This document shows, one piece after another, positions 21,416 through 28,765 of a stretch of 32,675 bases of DNA (its first letter is position 1; each line of letters starts with the position of its first letter). Source of the DNA: Agathobacter sp. (GTDB lineage: Bacteria; Bacillota; Clostridia; Lachnospirales; Lachnospiraceae); NCBI GenBank assembly GCA_017623935.1, contig JAGAOC010000061.1:1-32675 (forward strand). Direction: 5' to 3'. The notes under the pieces were generated by a model. The model saw nothing but the letters and a program-made list of their open reading frames with translations. It had not been told where the DNA came from and did no database searches. The translations under genes and the position numbers were made by a program.

Positions 21416-21928
21416 ATGGAAGATTTATTACAGGTGGGTGTCATTACCTCTACCCATGGCGTGCGTGGGGAAGTGAAAGTTTTTCCAACAACGGATGATC
21501 CCGCACGTTTTAAGAAATTAAAAAAAGTAATCTTAGACTCTGGAAAAGAGCAGTTAGAATTGGAAATTGCTTCCGTTAAATTTTTCAAAAATATGGTCAT
21601 TGTGAAATTTAAGGGAATTGATAATATAAATGACGTAGAAAAATACAAAAAAGCAGGTTTGTTCGTTACTCGGGACAACGCAGTAAAATTGAAAGAAAAT
21701 GAGTATTTTATTGCGGACTTGATTGGACTTTCTGTAGTGTCCGACGAGGGAGAAGAATTAGGAACGTTAGCAGATGTGCTTTCTACAGGAGCCAATGATG
21801 TGTATGTCATAAAGAAAGAGGGAACACAGGATCTACTTCTCCCTGCTATTAAAGATTGTATCCGCAAAGTGGATTTTGACAGTCAGACCATGACAGTCTA
21901 TGTGCTTCCGGGATTGAGGGATCTGTAA
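21416..21928 (+). CDS. rimM: Ribosome maturation factor RimM
   Basis: 170 residues. Binds S19 and assists 30S head maturation. Seen: the N-terminal motif [16 protein letters not shown] and a C-terminal PRC-barrel-like half (about 95-170, with [26 protein letters not shown] and DLLLPAI). AAAGGA precedes ATG 21416. Its stop overlaps the trmD start by one base (TAATG), indicating translational coupling. Confidence 0.95.
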
Positions 21929-23406
21929 TGGCAGAAGGAATGAATTTTCATGTGCTGACCCTTTTTCCAGAAATGATCATGCAGGGAGTCACTACCAGTA
22001 TTACGGGAAGAGCTATGGAGCAGGGAACCATTTCGGTGGAAGCTGTGAATATCCGGGATTTTACTAAGAATAAGCATAGGAAAGTAGATGATTATACCTA
22101 TGGAGGCGGAGCGGGAATGCTCATGCAGGCGCAGCCTGTTTACGATGCCTATGCCAGCGTGGCAGAAAAGATCCCATCTGACCGGAAAAAAAGAGTCATC
22201 TATGTGACGCCTCAGGGAACGCCTTTTTGTCAGGCAATGGCAGAGGATCTGGCAAAAAATGATGAGTTGATCTTTTTATGCGGTCATTATGAAGGAATTG
22301 ACGAACGGGTCTTAGAAGAAGTGGTCACAGACTATGTTTCCATTGGAGACTATGTGCTGACAGGGGGAGAACTGGCGGCTATGGTTATGATCGACGCTAT
22401 TTCTCGGCTGGTACCAGGAGTATTGAATAATGAAGAATCTGCAGAAACAGAGTCTTTTCACGGCAATCTTTTAGAATATCCGCAGTATTCCAGACCAAAG
22501 GTGTGGCACGATAAGGAAGTGCCGGAAGTGCTTTTATCCGGAAATACGAAGAATATCCGCAAATGGCGGTTAGAGCAGTCTATAGTCCGCACAAAAGAGC
22601 GCAGACCGGATTTATATGCAAAGTATGAAGAACTTCAAAGCTGTCTGGAGGTCTTAAAGAAAAACAAGTTAAATAACATTGATATGATAGAGCTGATACA
22701 GCGGGGAAGAGCAATCCTCATAGGACGCAGAGGGGGCAGTATCCTTTTAAAAGATGCAAATTCAGGAGTATTGTTCCATTATGCAGATGATCCAAAGAGT
22801 GGCGAAGAATTGCTGCAATTATATAGTGAACAAAGAACTGCAGTAGTACAGCAATATGGATCACAGGGCAGAACGCAAGAGGTCTATCTGATCCTTCATC
22901 AGCAGGAAATGGTCTCTCACGCAAAGGAAATCCTGGGAGTAGAAGAAATTATGTCCTGCTACCAGAAAGTCTATACCAGAAAGGAAAGCCTGCCCATTAC
23001 AGGACTGTACCGACTGGATGGTCAGCCGGCAGATTCGGGGCTTTTTATCCGGAAATTGGGCCAGGCTGAAGAAAATGCTGTTCTTTCTATCTATACGGGA
23101 GTGGATGGGGCTTCTTATGTGAAAAAGTGTTTAGACCATGGAAATATGTATGGCGCATTTTTCGGGGACGAGTTAGCTGGAATCATGGGAATCCATGAAG
23201 ATGGAAGCCTTGGAATGTTACAGGTAAAGCCAAGCTTCCAGGGGCGAAAAGTGGCAAAAGCCCTGGAAACCTATCTGATCAATCTGGTTATTTCCTGGGG
23301 ATGGATCCCTTACGGACAGGTAGAAGAAGACAATGAGATTTCTTGGAGACTGCAGGAGTCCTTAGGACTTTACACCTCAAAAGATAAAATCTACTGGATG
23401 AGATAA
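21928..23406 (+). CDS. trmD: TrmD tRNA (guanine37-N1)-methyltransferase fused to a GNAT-like acetyltransferase
   Basis: 492 residues, about twice the usual TrmD length. Residues 5-250 are a complete TrmD, which methylates G37 of tRNAs from SAM to prevent frameshifting: FHVLTLFPEM, YGGGAGMLMQ, VIYVTPQG, CGHYEGIDERV, SIGDYVLTGGELA and ISRLVPGVL form the trefoil-knot SAM site. From about 253 (MIELIQRGRA) a second module begins, resembling stand-alone Clostridia GNATs with an N-terminal recognition part (about 255-370) and a catalytic part (about 375-492) containing an acetyl-CoA loop-like VKPSFQGRKVAKALE. There is no stop or ribosome binding site at the junction (about 22650-22690). Start ATG 21928, with GAGGGA upstream, overlaps rimM. 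The acetyl acceptor is unknown. Confidence 0.9.
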   Translation: MAEGMNFHVLTLFPEMIMQGVTTSITGRAMEQGTISVEAVNIRDFTKNKHRKVDDYTYGGGAGMLMQAQPVYDAYASVAEKIPSDRKKRVIYVTPQGTPFCQAMAEDLAKNDELIFLCGHYEGIDERVLEEVVTDYVSIGDYVLTGGELAAMVMIDAISRLVPGVLNNEESAETESFHGNLLEYPQYSRPKVWHDKEVPEVLLSGNTKNIRKWRLEQSIVRTKERRPDLYAKYEELQSCLEVLKKNKLNNIDMIELIQRGRAILIGRRGGSILLKDANSGVLFHYADDPKSGEELLQLYSEQRTAVVQQYGSQGRTQEVYLILHQQEMVSHAKEILGVEEIMSCYQKVYTRKESLPITGLYRLDGQPADSGLFIRKLGQAEENAVLSIYTGVDGASYVKKCLDHGNMYGAFFGDELAGIMGIHEDGSLGMLQVKPSFQGRKVAKALETYLINLVISWGWIPYGQVEEDNEISWRLQESLGLYTSKDKIYWMR

Positions 23407-23554: not shown

Positions 23555-23908
23555 ATGAACGCAAGTGAAATTATTAAGAACATCGAAGCTGAACAGTTAA
23601 AAGCAGAAGTACCACAGTTTAATGTTGGTGATACTGTAAAAGTTTACGGAAAGATCAAAGAAGGAAACCGTGAACGTGTTCAGGTATTTGAAGGAACTGT
23701 TATTAAGAAACAGGGCGGAAGCAACCGCGCAACCTTTACTGTTAGAAAACTTTCTAATGGTGTTGGTGTAGAAAAAACCTGGCCATTACATTCTCCAAAC
23801 GTAGAGAAAGTTGATGTTGTACGTAGAGGTAAAGTAAGACGTGCAAAACTTTACTACTTAAGAGATCGTGTAGGTAAAGCTGCTAAGGTTAAAGAATTAG
23901 TAAAATAA
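23555..23908 (+). CDS. rplS: 50S ribosomal protein L19
   Basis: 117 residues, normal length. Located at the 30S-50S interface. Seen: [54 protein letters not shown] and [13 protein letters not shown], all diagnostic. AGGAGG precedes ATG 23555. Own leader and terminator make it a single-gene unit. Confidence 0.98.
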
Positions 23909-23917
23909 TCTTGCATT

Positions 23918-23962
23918 AAAAACTGCTTCATTCATTGGAAACAATGGATGGAGCAGTTTTTT
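23918..23962 (+). terminator. Intrinsic terminator after rplS
   Basis: AAAACTGCTTCATTCATTG pairs, with two mismatches, with CAATGGATGGAGCAGTTTT around a GAAA loop, followed by a T run. Confidence 0.92.
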
Positions 23963-23999: not shown

Positions 24000-24036
24000 T
24001 TTTTATGGGCAAAGAGGGTTTCTTTGCCCATAAAAA
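24000..24036 (+). repeat. Perfect 16-base inverted repeat upstream of lepB
   Basis: Arms TTTTTATGGGCAAAGA (24000-24015) and its exact complement (24021-24036) around GGGTT. Neither strand has a T tract after the GC-rich core, so it is not a standard terminator. It lies 40 bases after the rplS terminator and 43 before lepB, near a TTGACA at 23969, and may be an operator or an RNA element. Confidence 0.65.
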
Positions 24037-24079: not shown

Positions 24080-24661
24080 ATGAGACGTCGCAGTGGGCTG
24101 AATTTTGGAAAACAACGGAAAAAGTTTAATCTGCCACTTTTTAAAGAGATTCTTACATGGATTGGAGAAATCCTGCTGATCATCGTGGTAGCGGGAATCT
24201 GTGTGAGTTTTTTTGGAGTGCGTACTACGGTAGTGGGGCAGGCAATGTCAGAGACTCTTTCCAATGGAGACCAGATTCTGATCAATAAATTTCAGTATGT
24301 TATTTCTAGTCCAAAACAGGGAGATGTAGTGGTGTTTTTACCCAATGGCAATGAGAAGTCCCATTATTATGTAAGAAGAGTCATCGGTGTCCCAGGTGAT
24401 ACCATACAGATCAAAGAAGGGGCTGTTTATGTCAATGATGAACTGTATTTGGAAGAGCGGGAAGTGGCTTCTATTGAAGAGGCGGGAATTGCCAGTGAAC
24501 CCATCACTTTGGAAGATGGGGAGTATTTTGTGCTGGGAGATAATCGAAACAACAGTGAGGACAGCAGATTTGCCAATATTGGTAATATAAAAGAAGATTA
24601 TATCATTGGCAAGGCTTGGGTCTATTTTGAATCCATCGGCAAGATGGGATTTATCAAGTAA
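24080..24661 (+). CDS. Signal peptidase I homologue lacking the catalytic Ser-Lys dyad
   Basis: 193 residues. Type I signal peptidases release exported proteins by cutting signal peptides outside the membrane. The architecture is complete: basic N-terminus, one membrane segment (about 28-46), then boxes B-E. However, box B, normally GxSMxPTL, reads GQAMSETL, so the nucleophile Ser is Ala55 (a Ser sits two residues later at 57). Box D, normally KRVIGxPGD, reads RRVIGVPGD, so the general-base Lys is Arg99. Box E GDNRNNSEDSR (153-163) is intact. A direct parallel is Staphylococcus aureus SpsA, an inactive homologue lacking both residues. AAAGGAG precedes ATG 24080. It occupies the classical lepB position before rbgA and rnhB. 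I infer it is inactive or works by an unusual mechanism. Confidence 0.88.
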   Translation: MRRRSGLNFGKQRKKFNLPLFKEILTWIGEILLIIVVAGICVSFFGVRTTVVGQAMSETLSNGDQILINKFQYVISSPKQGDVVVFLPNGNEKSHYYVRRVIGVPGDTIQIKEGAVYVNDELYLEEREVASIEEAGIASEPITLEDGEYFVLGDNRNNSEDSRFANIGNIKEDYIIGKAWVYFESIGKMGFIK

Positions 24662-24676: not shown

Positions 24677-25525
24677 ATGAATTTTCAGTGGTATCCTGGC
24701 CATATGACAAAGGCCAGAAGACAGATGTTAGAAGATATCAAATTAATCGATATCGTAATTGAACTGGTGGATGCAAGAATCCCTATCAGTAGCAGAAATC
24801 CGGATATTGATGATCTGGGAAAGAATAAATATCGACTCATCCTTTTGAATAAATATGATCTGGCTGATAAGGCGAAAAGCGATGCTTGGACGGAATATTT
24901 TAAAGAAAAGGGATTTTTTGTGGTGGGGCTGGATTCCCGGACAAAAAATGCCATGAAGCAGGTAACTGCAGTGATCATGGAAGCCTGTAAGGAGAAGATC
25001 GAAAGAGACAGAAAGCGTGGGATCAAGAATCGTCCCGTAAGAGCTATGGTAGTGGGGATTCCGAATGTAGGCAAATCTACATTTATCAATTCCTATGCAG
25101 GAAAGGCCGTAACAAAGACCGGAAACAAGCCGGGAGTGACCAAAGGAAAACAGTGGATCCGTCCAAATAATCAGGTGGAATTGTTAGATACGCCGGGAAT
25201 CCTGTGGCCAAAGTTTGAAGACCAGACTGTAGGTTTAAAGCTGGCACTCATTGGTTCTATTAAGGATGAGATCTTAAATGTAGACGAGCTTGCCATCGAA
25301 CTGATCAAAATTTTAAAAATTCAGTACCCTGGAGTACTAAAGAATCGCTATGAAGTGGACGAAACAAAAGGTGATACAGAGATCTTAATGGACATTGCCC
25401 AGAACCGGAAATGTATTTCCAAGGGGAATGAACTGGATTACAGTAAGGCAGCAGGTCTTTTGATCGATGAGTTTAGAAGCGGCGTGCTGGGAAGACTTTC
25501 CTTAGAGATGCCGGAGGAGTCATAA
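24677..25525 (+). CDS. rbgA: Ribosome biogenesis GTPase RbgA (YlqF)
   Basis: 282 residues. A circularly permuted GTPase needed for late 50S assembly in Bacillus. Seen: N-terminal WYPGHMTKARRQM, then G4 NKYD (58-61) before G1 GIPNVGKST (127-135), G2 KPGVTKG and G3 DTPG (171-174), the permuted order that defines the family; a C-terminal helical RNA-binding domain follows (about 200-282). It starts 15 bases after lepB. Confidence 0.96.
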   Translation: MNFQWYPGHMTKARRQMLEDIKLIDIVIELVDARIPISSRNPDIDDLGKNKYRLILLNKYDLADKAKSDAWTEYFKEKGFFVVGLDSRTKNAMKQVTAVIMEACKEKIERDRKRGIKNRPVRAMVVGIPNVGKSTFINSYAGKAVTKTGNKPGVTKGKQWIRPNNQVELLDTPGILWPKFEDQTVGLKLALIGSIKDEILNVDELAIELIKILKIQYPGVLKNRYEVDETKGDTEILMDIAQNRKCISKGNELDYSKAAGLLIDEFRSGVLGRLSLEMPEES

Positions 25526-25639
25526 GACAAGAGGCGAAGAGCTGTTTTGGGACAGAAGAGAAAGCGCGAAGACTTGCCTTAGGACAGAAGAGAAAACGCG
25601 AAGAGCTGTCTTTGGACAGAAGACAAGAGGCACGAAAAG
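25526..25639 (+). repeat. Imperfect 32-base tandem repeat between rbgA and rnhB
   Basis: Two full units (25550-25581 and 25582-25613), each beginning GGACAGAAGAGAAA and containing CGCGAAGA, are flanked by partial copies on each side (AGACAAGAGGCGAAGAGCTG at 25526; GGACAGAAGACAAGAGGCA at 25614). The last partial copy ends at the rnhB start and may supply its weak, purine-rich ribosome binding site. In the rnhB frame the repeat contains a stop, so it is not coding. Confidence 0.75.
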
Positions 25640-26404
25640 ATGAGCGAATTAAAAATTGGACAGATCAAGGAGCAACTGGCGCAGACGCCGGAAGCATCCT
25701 TAGAGGAATTTATTGCTGAGTTTGAGGCAGATGAAAGAGCTGGCGTTGTGAAGCTGGTGGAGTCTGCTAGAAAGAAATTAGAGAAATTAGAGCAGGAGAA
25801 AGCCAGGATCGAGGGCTTGAAGAAGTACGAAAGAGAATATAGTGAACATGCTTTTATCTGCGGAATCGATGAAGTAGGAAGAGGTCCATTAGCAGGACCG
25901 GTGGTGGCAGGTGCCGTTATCCTTCCGAAGGATTGCGATATTTTATATATCAACGATTCCAAGCAGTTATCCGAAGCAAAAAGGGAAGCCTTGTATGATG
26001 AGATCATGGAGAAAGCCATAGCAGCAGAAGTAGGTCTGGTGTCTCCTGAGAGGATTGATGAGATCAATATCTTACAGGCAACTTATGAAGCTATGCGTCA
26101 GGCCATCAGCAAGTTGGATCCGGTACCGGATCTTCTCTTAAATGACGCAGTAACCATACCGGAAGTAGTAATTCAGCAGGTGCCGATCATTAAAGGAGAC
26201 GCTAAGAGTATTTCTATTGGAGCGGCCAGTATTATTGCGAAAGTTACCAGGGATCGGATGATGGTAGAATATGATCATATTTTCCCTGGATATGGATTTG
26301 CCTCCAATAAAGGATATGGTTCCAAGGAACATATAGAAGCCTTGAAAAAATTCGGACCAACCCCAATTCATCGTAGAACTTTTATTAAGAATTTTATGGA
26401 GTAG
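25640..26404 (+). CDS. rnhB: Ribonuclease HII
   Basis: 254 residues. Removes ribonucleotides and RNA-DNA hybrids. The catalytic core begins with GIDEVGRGPLAGPVVAGAVIL (Asp77, Glu78), then NDSKQLSEAKRE, LLNDAVTIP, and GDAKSISIGAASIIAKVTRD, all canonical. A charged N-terminal extension of about 70 residues, predicted helical, precedes the core, as in Bacillus-type RNase HII. The stop is two bases before the next gene. Confidence 0.96.
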   Translation: MSELKIGQIKEQLAQTPEASLEEFIAEFEADERAGVVKLVESARKKLEKLEQEKARIEGLKKYEREYSEHAFICGIDEVGRGPLAGPVVAGAVILPKDCDILYINDSKQLSEAKREALYDEIMEKAIAAEVGLVSPERIDEINILQATYEAMRQAISKLDPVPDLLLNDAVTIPEVVIQQVPIIKGDAKSISIGAASIIAKVTRDRMMVEYDHIFPGYGFASNKGYGSKEHIEALKKFGPTPIHRRTFIKNFME

Positions 26405-26406
26405 CT

Positions 26407-28413
26407 ATGCAAATAACAGATCTGATACGTCAATATAACAAAGCAACAGACAGCAATCAGAATGTGAACAGTAAGAAAGGTGTAGAGAAGCTTACTTCTT
26501 CTCTTCAAGAACTGTCCACAGGAAATGTATTTGAAGGAACTGTAAAATATGCAAAAAATGGACAGGTGGTGTTAGGATTGTCTAACGGCCAGAGGATCGT
26601 TGCCCGTATGGACGGGAAAGTGCCTCTAGAAGAGGGGCAGTCTATGTTTTTTCAGGTGAAGTCCAATGATGGAACACAGATCGCCATTCGTCCTTATACA
26701 CTAGATGGAAATAGTATCAACCTGACTTTGCTGCAGGCTTTAAAAGCAGCGAATCTTCCAGTGGATGGAGATCATCTGTCCATGGTGAATCGGATGATGC
26801 AGGAGCAGATGTCTATTGACCGGAACAGCTTATCTCAGATGGCAAGAGTGTTGACAGCAAATCCTGGAGTAGATCCTCAGACTTTGGTGCAGATGCAGAA
26901 GTTAAATCTGCCAATCTCTCCGGAAATGGCGGCTCAGTTTGAAAAATATATGAATAATGGTCAGGCAATTCATGAGTCCATGAATCAGTTTTTGGATGTG
27001 TTGCCGACGGCTATGACAGAGGAATCTTTGTCTATGGAAAGTCTGCAACAGTTGAATCTCTCGTTGCTCGAGATCGTTACAGAAGGCTTACCGGAAGCTG
27101 GTCAGTTAGCGGGAACGGCGGAGCAAAATGGCGGACAGGCTGTGTATGGAGGGATTTCCCAAGGCGTACAGGTGATCATAGATTTTGATGGAAGCGTTAC
27201 TATCAGTGGTGGAAATCCGGAAGATGCAGCCGGAGCGGAAGCAGCAGTTGCAGGACTGACAGAAGGAGAAGCCGTCCCAGGGCAGGAAGCCGGGGGAGCA
27301 GTCGGAGCAGAAGGAGCAGCTGGCGCAGAAGCAGGCTCTACAGGAGTAGCCGGAACAGAAGCGGGCGTTGCAGGAGCAGACGGAGCCATAGGTCAGGAAG
27401 CGGGCGTTGCAGGAGCAGAGAGCACAGCAGGTCAGGAAGCCGCAAACGGGGCGGTTTTAGAAGAAGGAACCCATACTTCTAAGAGTGAAGGATTTTTCGC
27501 CTCTGGAAAAGCAATCTTAGCAGATCTTTTTTCTGGAGCTACAGAGTCTCAGGGGACAGAAGAGACCCTGTTAAAAGGGAACGATTCTATGGATCGGGCA
27601 CCTCATACTTTAGGGGCAATCTTAACAGATAAAGGCATGGAGAATCTGGAAAAGAGTCTGTCACTTCTTTCAGATAAACAGGTAAAGATCGGTCAGAACA
27701 CTACCACGGCGGATCTGCTTAATTTTGTCAAACAGACTCTAGAGACAGGACAGTTTTCTAATAGAGATTCATTCCGTTCTTTCTTTGGGGGAAAGGAATT
27801 CTCTGCGGTAGTAAAGGATGCCCTGCAGCAGCAGTGGACCATTACTCCGAAGGAATTAGAGAATGAAGCAGCGATCAACAAGCTTTATGAGAAAATGGAA
27901 CAAAAAGTTACTCAGTTGGAGCAGGCCCTGCACAATGCGGGGGTGCAAAATGCCAATATTTCCCAGGCGGCGGCAGATGTAAAAGGCAATGTGGAATTTA
28001 TGAATCAGGTAAATCAGCTTTATACTTATGTTCAGATTCCTCTTAAGATGTCAGGCCAGACAGCCAGCGGGGAGCTTTATGTATATACCAATAAGAAGAA
28101 CCTTCAGGAAGGGAAAGAGGAGTTGACAGCTTTTCTGCATCTGGATATGGATAATCTGGGTTCCACCGATGTGTCCATCCGTTTGAAAGGGAAGGATCTT
28201 TCCACGAATTTCTATCTGGATGATGATGCTTCTTTTGACCTGGTGCAGGAGCATTTGCCAATTTTGGAGGCACGATTAGCTGCAAAAGGATATAACAGCA
28301 AGATTTCAGTGAGCAATGAATCAAAAAAAGTAGATTTTGTTGATGATTTCCTGAAAAAAGACCAGCCATCAGCAGGTCAGGTACACCGATATTCATTTGA
28401 CATGAGGGCTTAA
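26407..28413 (+). CDS. YlqG-like protein with FliK-type (flagellar hook-length control) C-terminal domain
   Basis: 668 residues, no membrane segment or signal peptide seen. The order rnhB-ylqG-ylqH matches Bacillus subtilis. N-terminus (about 1-110) is a small beta-rich region (FEGTVKYAKNGQVVLGLSNG); the middle is Met/Gln-rich; about 275-345 is an Ala/Gly/Glu low-complexity stretch; the C-terminus (about 515-640) resembles the Flg_hook domain of FliK (YVQIPLKMSGQTASGELYVY, LHLDMDNLGSTDVSIRLK, LPILEARLAAKGYN). In FliK this domain contacts FlhB; the next gene encodes an isolated FlhB-like cytoplasmic domain, so the pair may interact. No other flagellar gene is present. Function unknown. Confidence 0.75.
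   Translation: MQITDLIRQYNKATDSNQNVNSKKGVEKLTSSLQELSTGNVFEGTVKYAKNGQVVLGLSNGQRIVARMDGKVPLEEGQSMFFQVKSNDGTQIAIRPYTLDGNSINLTLLQALKAANLPVDGDHLSMVNRMMQEQMSIDRNSLSQMARVLTANPGVDPQTLVQMQKLNLPISPEMAAQFEKYMNNGQAIHESMNQFLDVLPTAMTEESLSMESLQQLNLSLLEIVTEGLPEAGQLAGTAEQNGGQAVYGGISQGVQVIIDFDGSVTISGGNPEDAAGAEAAVAGLTEGEAVPGQEAGGAVGAEGAAGAEAGSTGVAGTEAGVAGADGAIGQEAGVAGAESTAGQEAANGAVLEEGTHTSKSEGFFASGKAILADLFSGATESQGTEETLLKGNDSMDRAPHTLGAILTDKGMENLEKSLSLLSDKQVKIGQNTTTADLLNFVKQTLETGQFSNRDSFRSFFGGKEFSAVVKDALQQQWTITPKELENEAAINKLYEKMEQKVTQLEQALHNAGVQNANISQAAADVKGNVEFMNQVNQLYTYVQIPLKMSGQTASGELYVYTNKKNLQEGKEELTAFLHLDMDNLGSTDVSIRLKGKDLSTNFYLDDDASFDLVQEHLPILEARLAAKGYNSKISVSNESKKVDFVDDFLKKDQPSAGQVHRYSFDMRA
27220..27440 (+). 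repeat. Low-complexity Ala/Gly/Glu-encoding repeat inside the ylqG-like gene
   Basis: Degenerate repeats of GCAGGAGCAGA and GGTCAGGAAGC types encode AGAE, AGQEA and GVAG blocks. Copies GCGGGCGTTGCAGGAGCAGA at about 27361 and 27402 are identical over 20 bases. It looks like a flexible linker that could vary in length. Confidence 0.6.
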
Positions 28414-28414
28414 T

Positions 28415-28765
28415 ATGGCAGAAAATAAAGAATTTCATCCTTTTTTTGATTGGAACAAGCAGGAAAAGGAGCAGAAAAAAGAGGTAGATAAAGAGAAGAC
28501 CGCCGTTGCCATTTCCTATACACCGGGCGAGCGGGCACCTAAGATCTTAGCTACCGGAAAAGGGGCAGTGGCAGATAAGATCATTGAGACTGCCCAGGAA
28601 AATGATGTCCCTCTTTATACGGATAATCAATTGGCAGACACCTTATCCAAACTTCAGATCGGAGATATGATCCCGCCAGAGCTTTACGAAGTGGTGGCAG
28701 AGATCTTAGTCTTTGTGGATGACATGGACAAGTTGAAAGCGAAAGTGGCAGATGTGAAACGATAA
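28415..28765 (+). CDS. FlhB C-terminal-domain-like protein (YlqH family)
   Basis: 116 residues resembling only the cytoplasmic switch domain of FlhB/YscU export proteins: VAISYTPGERAPKILATGKG, ENDVPLYTDNQLADTL, IGDMIPPELYEVVAEILVFV. The autocleaving NPTH motif of true FlhB is absent, and there are no transmembrane helices. Bacillus YlqH (FlhX-type) is the closest described relative; its role is not settled. It begins one base after the ylqG-like stop with only a weak GAGGG-type ribosome site, so it is translationally coupled. Confidence 0.85.
   Translation: MAENKEFHPFFDWNKQEKEQKKEVDKEKTAVAISYTPGERAPKILATGKGAVADKIIETAQENDVPLYTDNQLADTLSKLQIGDMIPPELYEVVAEILVFVDDMDKLKAKVADVKR

Follow-up and report, generated by a model that had tools for sequence, protein, structure and literature searches.

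Single signal peptidase homologues that lack their catalytic residues are already known from staphylococci and from streptococcal pilus operons. In Staphylococcus aureus, SpsA is a signal peptidase without two catalytic residues that stands beside the intact SpsB and is described as dispensable in the part of PMC12445088 that concerns it. In Streptococcus pyogenes, the dyad-less SipA (PDB 4n31 and 4k8w) is essential for pilus polymerisation and has been proposed to bind peptide without cutting it, peptide binding in vitro being not detectable according to the relevant sections of PMC4049620. The engineered SpsB S36A, seen in structure 4wvg, was reported, in the structural part of PMC4704075, to be unaffected in its structure; therefore, a Ser-to-Ala change at the nucleophile can leave the structure undisturbed. 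Here we describe lepX, a gene for a type I signal peptidase homologue on a contig of 32,675 nucleotides from Agathobacter sp. (Lachnospiraceae; GenBank assembly GCA_017623935.1, contig JAGAOC010000061.1; this whole stretch is called the window), in which Ala55 and Arg99 replace the Ser/Lys dyad.

The loss of LepX catalysis is, judging from these residues, near certain. We infer from the conservation of the rest of the sequence that LepX would bind the ends of signal peptides, and our preferred reading, to which we give a probability of about 0.57, is that it is a catalytically dead but functionally maintained homologue that binds those ends without cutting them. What is new is that the switch has occurred repeatedly in a single family of genes, and at a housekeeping locus. 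Among the open-licence literature matches listed, no paper dealt with an inactive signal peptidase in these bacteria; a population study of E. rectale, in the portion available, mentions lepB a single time, as one of the genes under-represented in the European subspecies, the copy being unstated.

The changed dyad of LepX and its distribution in the genus

Profile searches matched the window protein to PF10502 (Peptidase_S26) with 134.9 bits (cut-off 22.9) and to TIGR02227 (signal peptidase I) with 136.5 bits (cut-off 47). In phmmer alignments to 4nv4, 4wvg and 4wvh, of which 4wvg carries a nucleophile serine already mutated to alanine, Ala55 aligns to the nucleophile serine and Arg99 to the general-base lysine, so that codons and solved structures agree with the initial annotation, which had read both replacements from the DNA. 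It had also described the fold, the membrane anchor and box E as intact, and this was borne out: a predicted model of moderate confidence (pLDDT 71.6, pTM 0.65) matches the structures of SpsB, LepB and SipA (Foldseek, VIA), with SipA among the top structural matches, an anchor helix is predicted, and box E is present. LepX thus has the profile match and the fold with one N-terminal anchor of a type I signal peptidase and lacks the Ser/Lys pair. On its sequence, we class the window protein as a homologue of type I signal peptidases, not an enzyme of that family.

All but three (G021, G022 and G079) of 62 Agathobacter-like genomes yielded a LepX sequence, 59 in total. Aligning these relatives at the rplS-rbgA locus, a check that the initial annotation had proposed, showed that the state is clade-wide: 29 proteins read Ala/Arg, 27 Ser/Lys and three Ser/Arg (G029, G060 and G078). 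Ala/Lys was not seen, and the losses are coupled in the genus, Ala55 occurring without Arg99 in 0 of the 59. Ala/Arg proteins include those of the isolate Agathobacter ruminis JK623 (L039) and of a single-contig genome of 3,449,685 bases (G016), and the state persists down to 52% pairwise identity. When the two catalytic columns were left out of the tree, 28 of the 29 Ala/Arg proteins grouped together with G029 nested inside, the placement of G062 being open; in a larger tree, all 29 and G029 formed one fork with support 88.

We also looked at the other signal peptidases of the same genomes. The source genome is a fragmented assembly of 2.08 Mb, about 80% complete, in which the window is contig 82. 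The second, intact lepB that the initial annotation had suggested looking for was found twice, as full-length paralogues on contigs 59 and 15, both Ser/Lys, and there are three weaker matches besides. At least one other signal peptidase was read as Ser/Lys in 28 of the 29 Ala/Arg genomes, the exception being G024, a genome 58% complete. A first set of other-paralogue rows was Ser/Lys throughout (40/40, two G000 proteins counted twice); a second set gave 17 Ser/Lys rows and one short, distant match (L263) reading Ser/Arg, probably a misalignment.

Constraint on the protein and its peptide cleft

To the genus proteins we added relatives from the family, in which 397 genomes were searched, 365 matched at 1e-30 and the best 140 matches outside the genus were taken; trees as well as codon, tail and cleft counts refer to a set without the last 20 other-genus genomes (182 LepX). 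Thirty positions hold one residue at 93% or more among the 27 Ser/Lys LepX of the genus as well as among the 113 from elsewhere. Of these, 28 are conserved in the Ala/Arg proteins, and the only two lost are 55 and 99, each in 29/29. For the four closest Ala/Arg pairs, ratios of nonsynonymous to synonymous substitution (dN/dS, NG86) were 0.037, 0.101, 0.244 and 0.080; the four closest Ser/Lys pairs gave 0.030, 0.064, 0.077 and 0.061. Over all pairs with dS below 1.2, nine Ala/Arg pairs span 0.037-0.244 and eight Ser/Lys pairs 0.030-0.180. Values this far below 1 point to purifying selection and, together with the clade-wide sharing, rule out recent decay. Across the 182 LepX, alanine uses all four of its codons and arginine all six; the residues are therefore held while the DNA drifts. 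The proposal that LepX is a maintained pseudoenzyme rather than a decaying gene is thus supported by its spread over 29 of 59 genomes, the low dN/dS, the 28 of 30 positions kept and the intact paralogues.

The residues that contact the Ala-X-Ala end of a substrate are named in the contact description of an SpsB-peptide study (PMC4704075), and we mapped them onto LepX through the phmmer alignment (positions 49, 51, 52, 53, 56, 60, 85, 96 and 98; 50 and 54, mentioned as contacts by their main chain alone, are omitted). In the 29 Ala/Arg proteins, mean consensus at these nine positions was 98.9%, against 76.9% for the extracytosolic domain, a value matched by 5 of 20,000 random sets. The corresponding figures for the 27 Ser/Lys proteins were 92.5% and 84.2%, with 1,619 of 20,000 sets matching. 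Restricting the comparison to the six side-chain contacts gave 98.3% for Ala/Arg (98/20,000) and 91.3% for Ser/Lys (3,679/20,000). In these alignment columns, the side chains of the pocket are kept at least as well in Ala/Arg as in Ser/Lys LepX, the edge positions 50 and 54 being freer. In addition, G153 and S159, whose equivalents Gly272 and Ser278 frame the lysine in Escherichia coli, are present in 29/29 Ala/Arg proteins. Since SipA binding was undetected in vitro, a kept cleft is no proof of binding.

Loss across the family and competing explanations

The usual order in the family is rplS-lepX-rbgA-lepY, lepY encoding another signal peptidase; in genus loci rnhB comes after lepY. The best 140 other-genus LepX read Ser/Lys in 128 cases, Ser/Arg in five, Ala/Arg in three, Ala/Lys in three and Gly/Met in one, so that one or both dyad residues are lost in 12 of 140. 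With this single exception among 202 LepX, the replacements are Ala and/or Arg. LepY was found in 125 loci (116 of the best 140 and nine of the genus) and reads Ser/Lys in 116, Ser/Arg in one (G154) and Gln/Arg in one (G311), while seven are cut before box D and show the serine only. Where both genes are present, LepX alone departs from Ser/Lys in 10 loci, LepY alone in one and both in one; with the two genus members counted as one event, the comparison is 9 against 1 (p about 0.02). Two generalisations that were true in the first 120 other-genus genomes, that LepY never loses its dyad and that only Ala and Arg are used, were dropped after the next 20, the former because of G154 and G311 and the latter because of G311.

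The tree of 182 LepX contains 13 changes of dyad state. Rooted on LepY, it lets Ala/Arg arise four times (the genus clade, G404, G112 and Eubacterium sp. RUI358), Ser/Arg five times from Ser/Lys and Ala/Lys twice, with two reversals and six losses of the serine. A single origin of all Ala/Arg proteins was rejected in a 94-row subset tree (cost of 101 log units, p-AU 0.00044), a rejection weakened by long branches such as that of Eubacterium sp. RUI358. G473, outside the trees, is also Ala/Arg and has motifs resembling the RUI358 row, and might not represent an additional origin. Among independent pairs, the two losses went the same way in 3.9 and opposite ways in 0 (median p 0.125, not significant). 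The tree is a quick one, with some long rows and with 79 inner branches out of 184 open. Three Ser/Arg LepX of other genera (L199, L190 and L242) have also lost the serine of box E (to M, G and N), which on these residues we regard as a different path of active-site change; in the 182-LepX set, the Ser278 equivalent is lost in 3 of 7 Ser/Arg proteins.

How LepX might act can be outlined. The single helix would anchor it in the membrane with the cleft outside; the cleft would hold, uncut, the c-region of exported preproteins, or of a subset of them, or another peptide tail, and LepX could work alongside the true signal peptidases as a holdase, a chaperone or a regulator. Alanine would take away the nucleophile, and arginine would preserve the positive charge in the lysine pocket. 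Docking would perhaps go through the basic N-tail, whose pattern L.F..N is found in 32/32 changed-dyad LepX of the genus, 25/27 genus Ser/Lys LepX and 54/113 Ser/Lys LepX elsewhere, and in 0/110 LepY and 0/40 other paralogue rows. A wider proposal, which we hold only tentatively, is that across the Lachnospiraceae LepX had an ancestral non-catalytic job as a membrane-anchored reader of signal-peptide ends (an export chaperone, translocon partner or signal peptidase regulator) docking via the basic LNF tail, in which proteolysis would be optional and would have been given up on some ten occasions, in nearly every case through Ser-to-Ala and/or Lys-to-Arg changes, LepY mostly staying an enzyme.

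Several observations weigh against the idea of a maintained peptide binder, in the genus or across the family. When the variable positions 50 and 54 are added, the Ala/Arg cleft falls to 90.6% (382/20,000), no better than the Ser/Lys cleft at 92.2% (1,284/20,000). Sixty-five positions do not vary among the genus Ser/Lys proteins; the Ala/Arg proteins hold 50 of these at 93% or more and let 15 fall below, 55 and 99 included, which leaves 13 of 63 non-catalytic positions below that level; therefore, ordinary drift is at work as well. The median ratio of LepX to RbgA protein distance is 1.89 for Ala/Arg (375 pairs) against 1.47 for Ser/Lys (298 pairs), the pairs not being independent, and we read the constraint on Ala/Arg LepX, as far as sequence comparison goes, as real but somewhat looser. 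G029, nested in the clade, has serine again and keeps the arginine, which is best read as a reversion; many forks of the trees are weak and some rows long. The tail pattern, found in 0/10 changed LepX outside the genus, was picked after viewing the alignment, and the tail sequences come from stop-to-stop frames. The 140 loci from other genera were chosen as the best matches to an Ala/Arg query and do not form a random sample. LepY is not immune either, departing in 2 of 125 (G154 and G311), and in G311 (L270) both tandem signal peptidases are changed, LepX to Gly/Met, residues unseen in other LepX, and LepY to Gln/Arg, which perhaps looks like plain decay.

Part of these points would be expected if LepX were a redundant relic whose protease role is dispensable beside the other signal peptidases, which persists in an operon with rbgA and rnhB and is selected only against misfolding in the membrane. 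We consider this unlikely. The intact enzymes in 28 of 29 genomes fit it, as do the faster evolution relative to RbgA, the scattered losses elsewhere, including G311 with its unlike residues, and the fact that LepY is seen in only 2/29 Ala/Arg and 7/27 Ser/Lys genus loci. Such a relic would not readily lose exactly the two catalytic residues among 30 conserved positions, replace them, a single case among 202 LepX apart, with Ala and Arg, keep S159 and G153 in every clade member, or hold its state to 52% identity with dN/dS well below 1. It is less probable still that LepX is an inactive subunit tuning the rate or substrate choice of an active signal peptidase, its own cleft possibly unused. 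The separation of LepX from LepY by a single gene in 125 loci, the intact enzyme read in nearly all Ala/Arg genomes and the tail that the paralogues read lack would agree with this. Against it, LepY was not seen in 27 of the 29 Ala/Arg loci of the genus, some of which end near a contig edge.

The initial annotation had left room for Ser57, two residues from Ala55, as a displaced nucleophile. Ser57 is present in the window protein, and the position proved variable among 35 Ala55 proteins (E 14, S 7, A 5, T 4, and Q, Y, L, M and N one each), with serine in only 7, which speaks against the idea. The clade-invariant serines S94, S159 and S162 are not new, being found in 26-27 of 27 genus Ser/Lys LepX. 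Catalysis through H95 was dropped on the same ground, as this residue is equally conserved in the two groups (29/29 and 26/27). Arginine is a very poor general base, and we regard a protease that works through another serine, or with arginine as base, as highly improbable. A sequencing or binning artefact, for which the fragmentation and incompleteness of the source genome might speak, has a negligible chance: the identical two residues occur in 28 other genus genomes, one per species, including the A. ruminis isolate and the 3.45 Mb single-contig genome, and this rules it out. The preferred reading remains that of a dead but maintained homologue holding signal-peptide ends.

The lepX locus and its comparison with known systems

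The order rplS-lep-rbgA-rnhB, with ffh, rimM and trmD upstream, agrees with the earlier statement that the gene occupies the normal lepB position next to rbgA-rnhB. Coordinates are collected in Table 1.

Table 1. Features of lepX and its surroundings, in window coordinates
Feature	Position	Strand	Basis or remark
lepX, signal peptidase I homologue with Ala/Arg replacing the Ser/Lys dyad, 193 aa (P0001)	24080..24661	+	open reading frame, profile and structure-sequence matches
Basic N-tail, presumed cytosolic, LNF...N pattern, residues 3-17	24086..24130	+	frequent in LepX, absent from paralogues read
Membrane-anchor helix, residues 18-45	24131..24214	+	predicted model
Box B, GQAMSETL	24236..24259	+	translation, alignments
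Ala55 codon GCA, nucleophile position	24242..24244	+	sequence, alignment
Box D, YVRRVIGVPGD	24368..24400	+	translation, alignments
Arg99 codon AGA, general-base Lys position	24374..24376	+	sequence, alignment
Box E, GDNRNNSEDSR, with G153 and S159 (E. coli Gly272 and Ser278 equivalents)	24536..24568	+	numbering as in the relevant sections of PMC4049620
rplS (ribosomal protein L19), upstream neighbour	23555..23908	+	
Terminator-like hairpin between rplS and lepX	23918..23961	+	
rbgA (50S-binding GTPase), starts 15 bp past the lepX stop	24677..25525	+	
rnhB	25640..26404	+	LepY, after rbgA in many relatives, absent here

A hairpin with a perfect stem of 16 pairs lies in the lepX leader (24000-24036) and is terminator-like on the minus strand. 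A regulatory role before lepX was rejected, as the other loci with both genes did not show the window's hairpin ahead of lepX. The gap between rplS and lepX measures 0.8-1.9 kb in seven relatives (L009, L118, L095, L097, L114, L116 and L120), which suggests inserted genes. Between rbgA and rnhB, at the site of lepY in many relatives, the window has 2.8 copies of a 32-bp unit (25534-25623).

Further away, the C-terminal stretch of TrmD (21928-23406) matches two GNAT acetyltransferase families just over their cut-offs, making a TrmD-GNAT fusion of 492 aa probable. Downstream of rnhB (26407-28765) lie genes for a FliK-like hook-length protein and for a stand-alone FlhB C-terminal domain, and a serpin, a serine-protease inhibitor, is encoded at 64-1452 (306.7 bits). 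A Pfam scan of 18 window proteins, among them the immediate neighbours of lepX, gave no pilin and no sortase.

With dead and intact orthologues sharing one site, and often an intact paralogue one gene off, the family offers a natural experiment on the non-cutting roles of signal peptidases. If LepX does hold signal peptides, it would be a new protein-export component in gut bacteria, and annotations as an active signal peptidase would be wrong for the Ala/Arg species.

Compared with described systems, the likeness to SpsA that the initial annotation had drawn stands as far as it concerns a signal peptidase without two catalytic residues with an intact one in the same genome, SpsA being compared by description only. 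Unlike SpsA, LepX shows this loss in 29 genomes of one genus and in other genera, mostly as Ala and/or Arg and at the rplS-rbgA locus. The Ser/Lys LepX of the genus lie at the same locus, show 57-65% identity to the window protein and share the tail pattern in 25 of 27; unlike it, they and LepY retain the dyad, and activity is predicted for both. The engineered SpsB S36A has alanine at the nucleophile as LepX does, but it keeps the lysine and is laboratory-made. SipA and LepX are alike in having the signal peptidase fold, a lost dyad and a kept peptide cleft (weaker in LepX if 50 and 54 are counted). They differ in that SipA has an Asp/Gly dyad with changed equivalents of Ser278 and Gly272 (relevant sections of PMC4049620), whereas LepX has Ala/Arg and keeps S159 and G153, and in that SipA is encoded with pilus genes, whereas LepX stands among ffh, trmD, rplS, rbgA and rnhB. 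By this analogy, we regard SipA as the nearest precedent with a phenotype for LepX.
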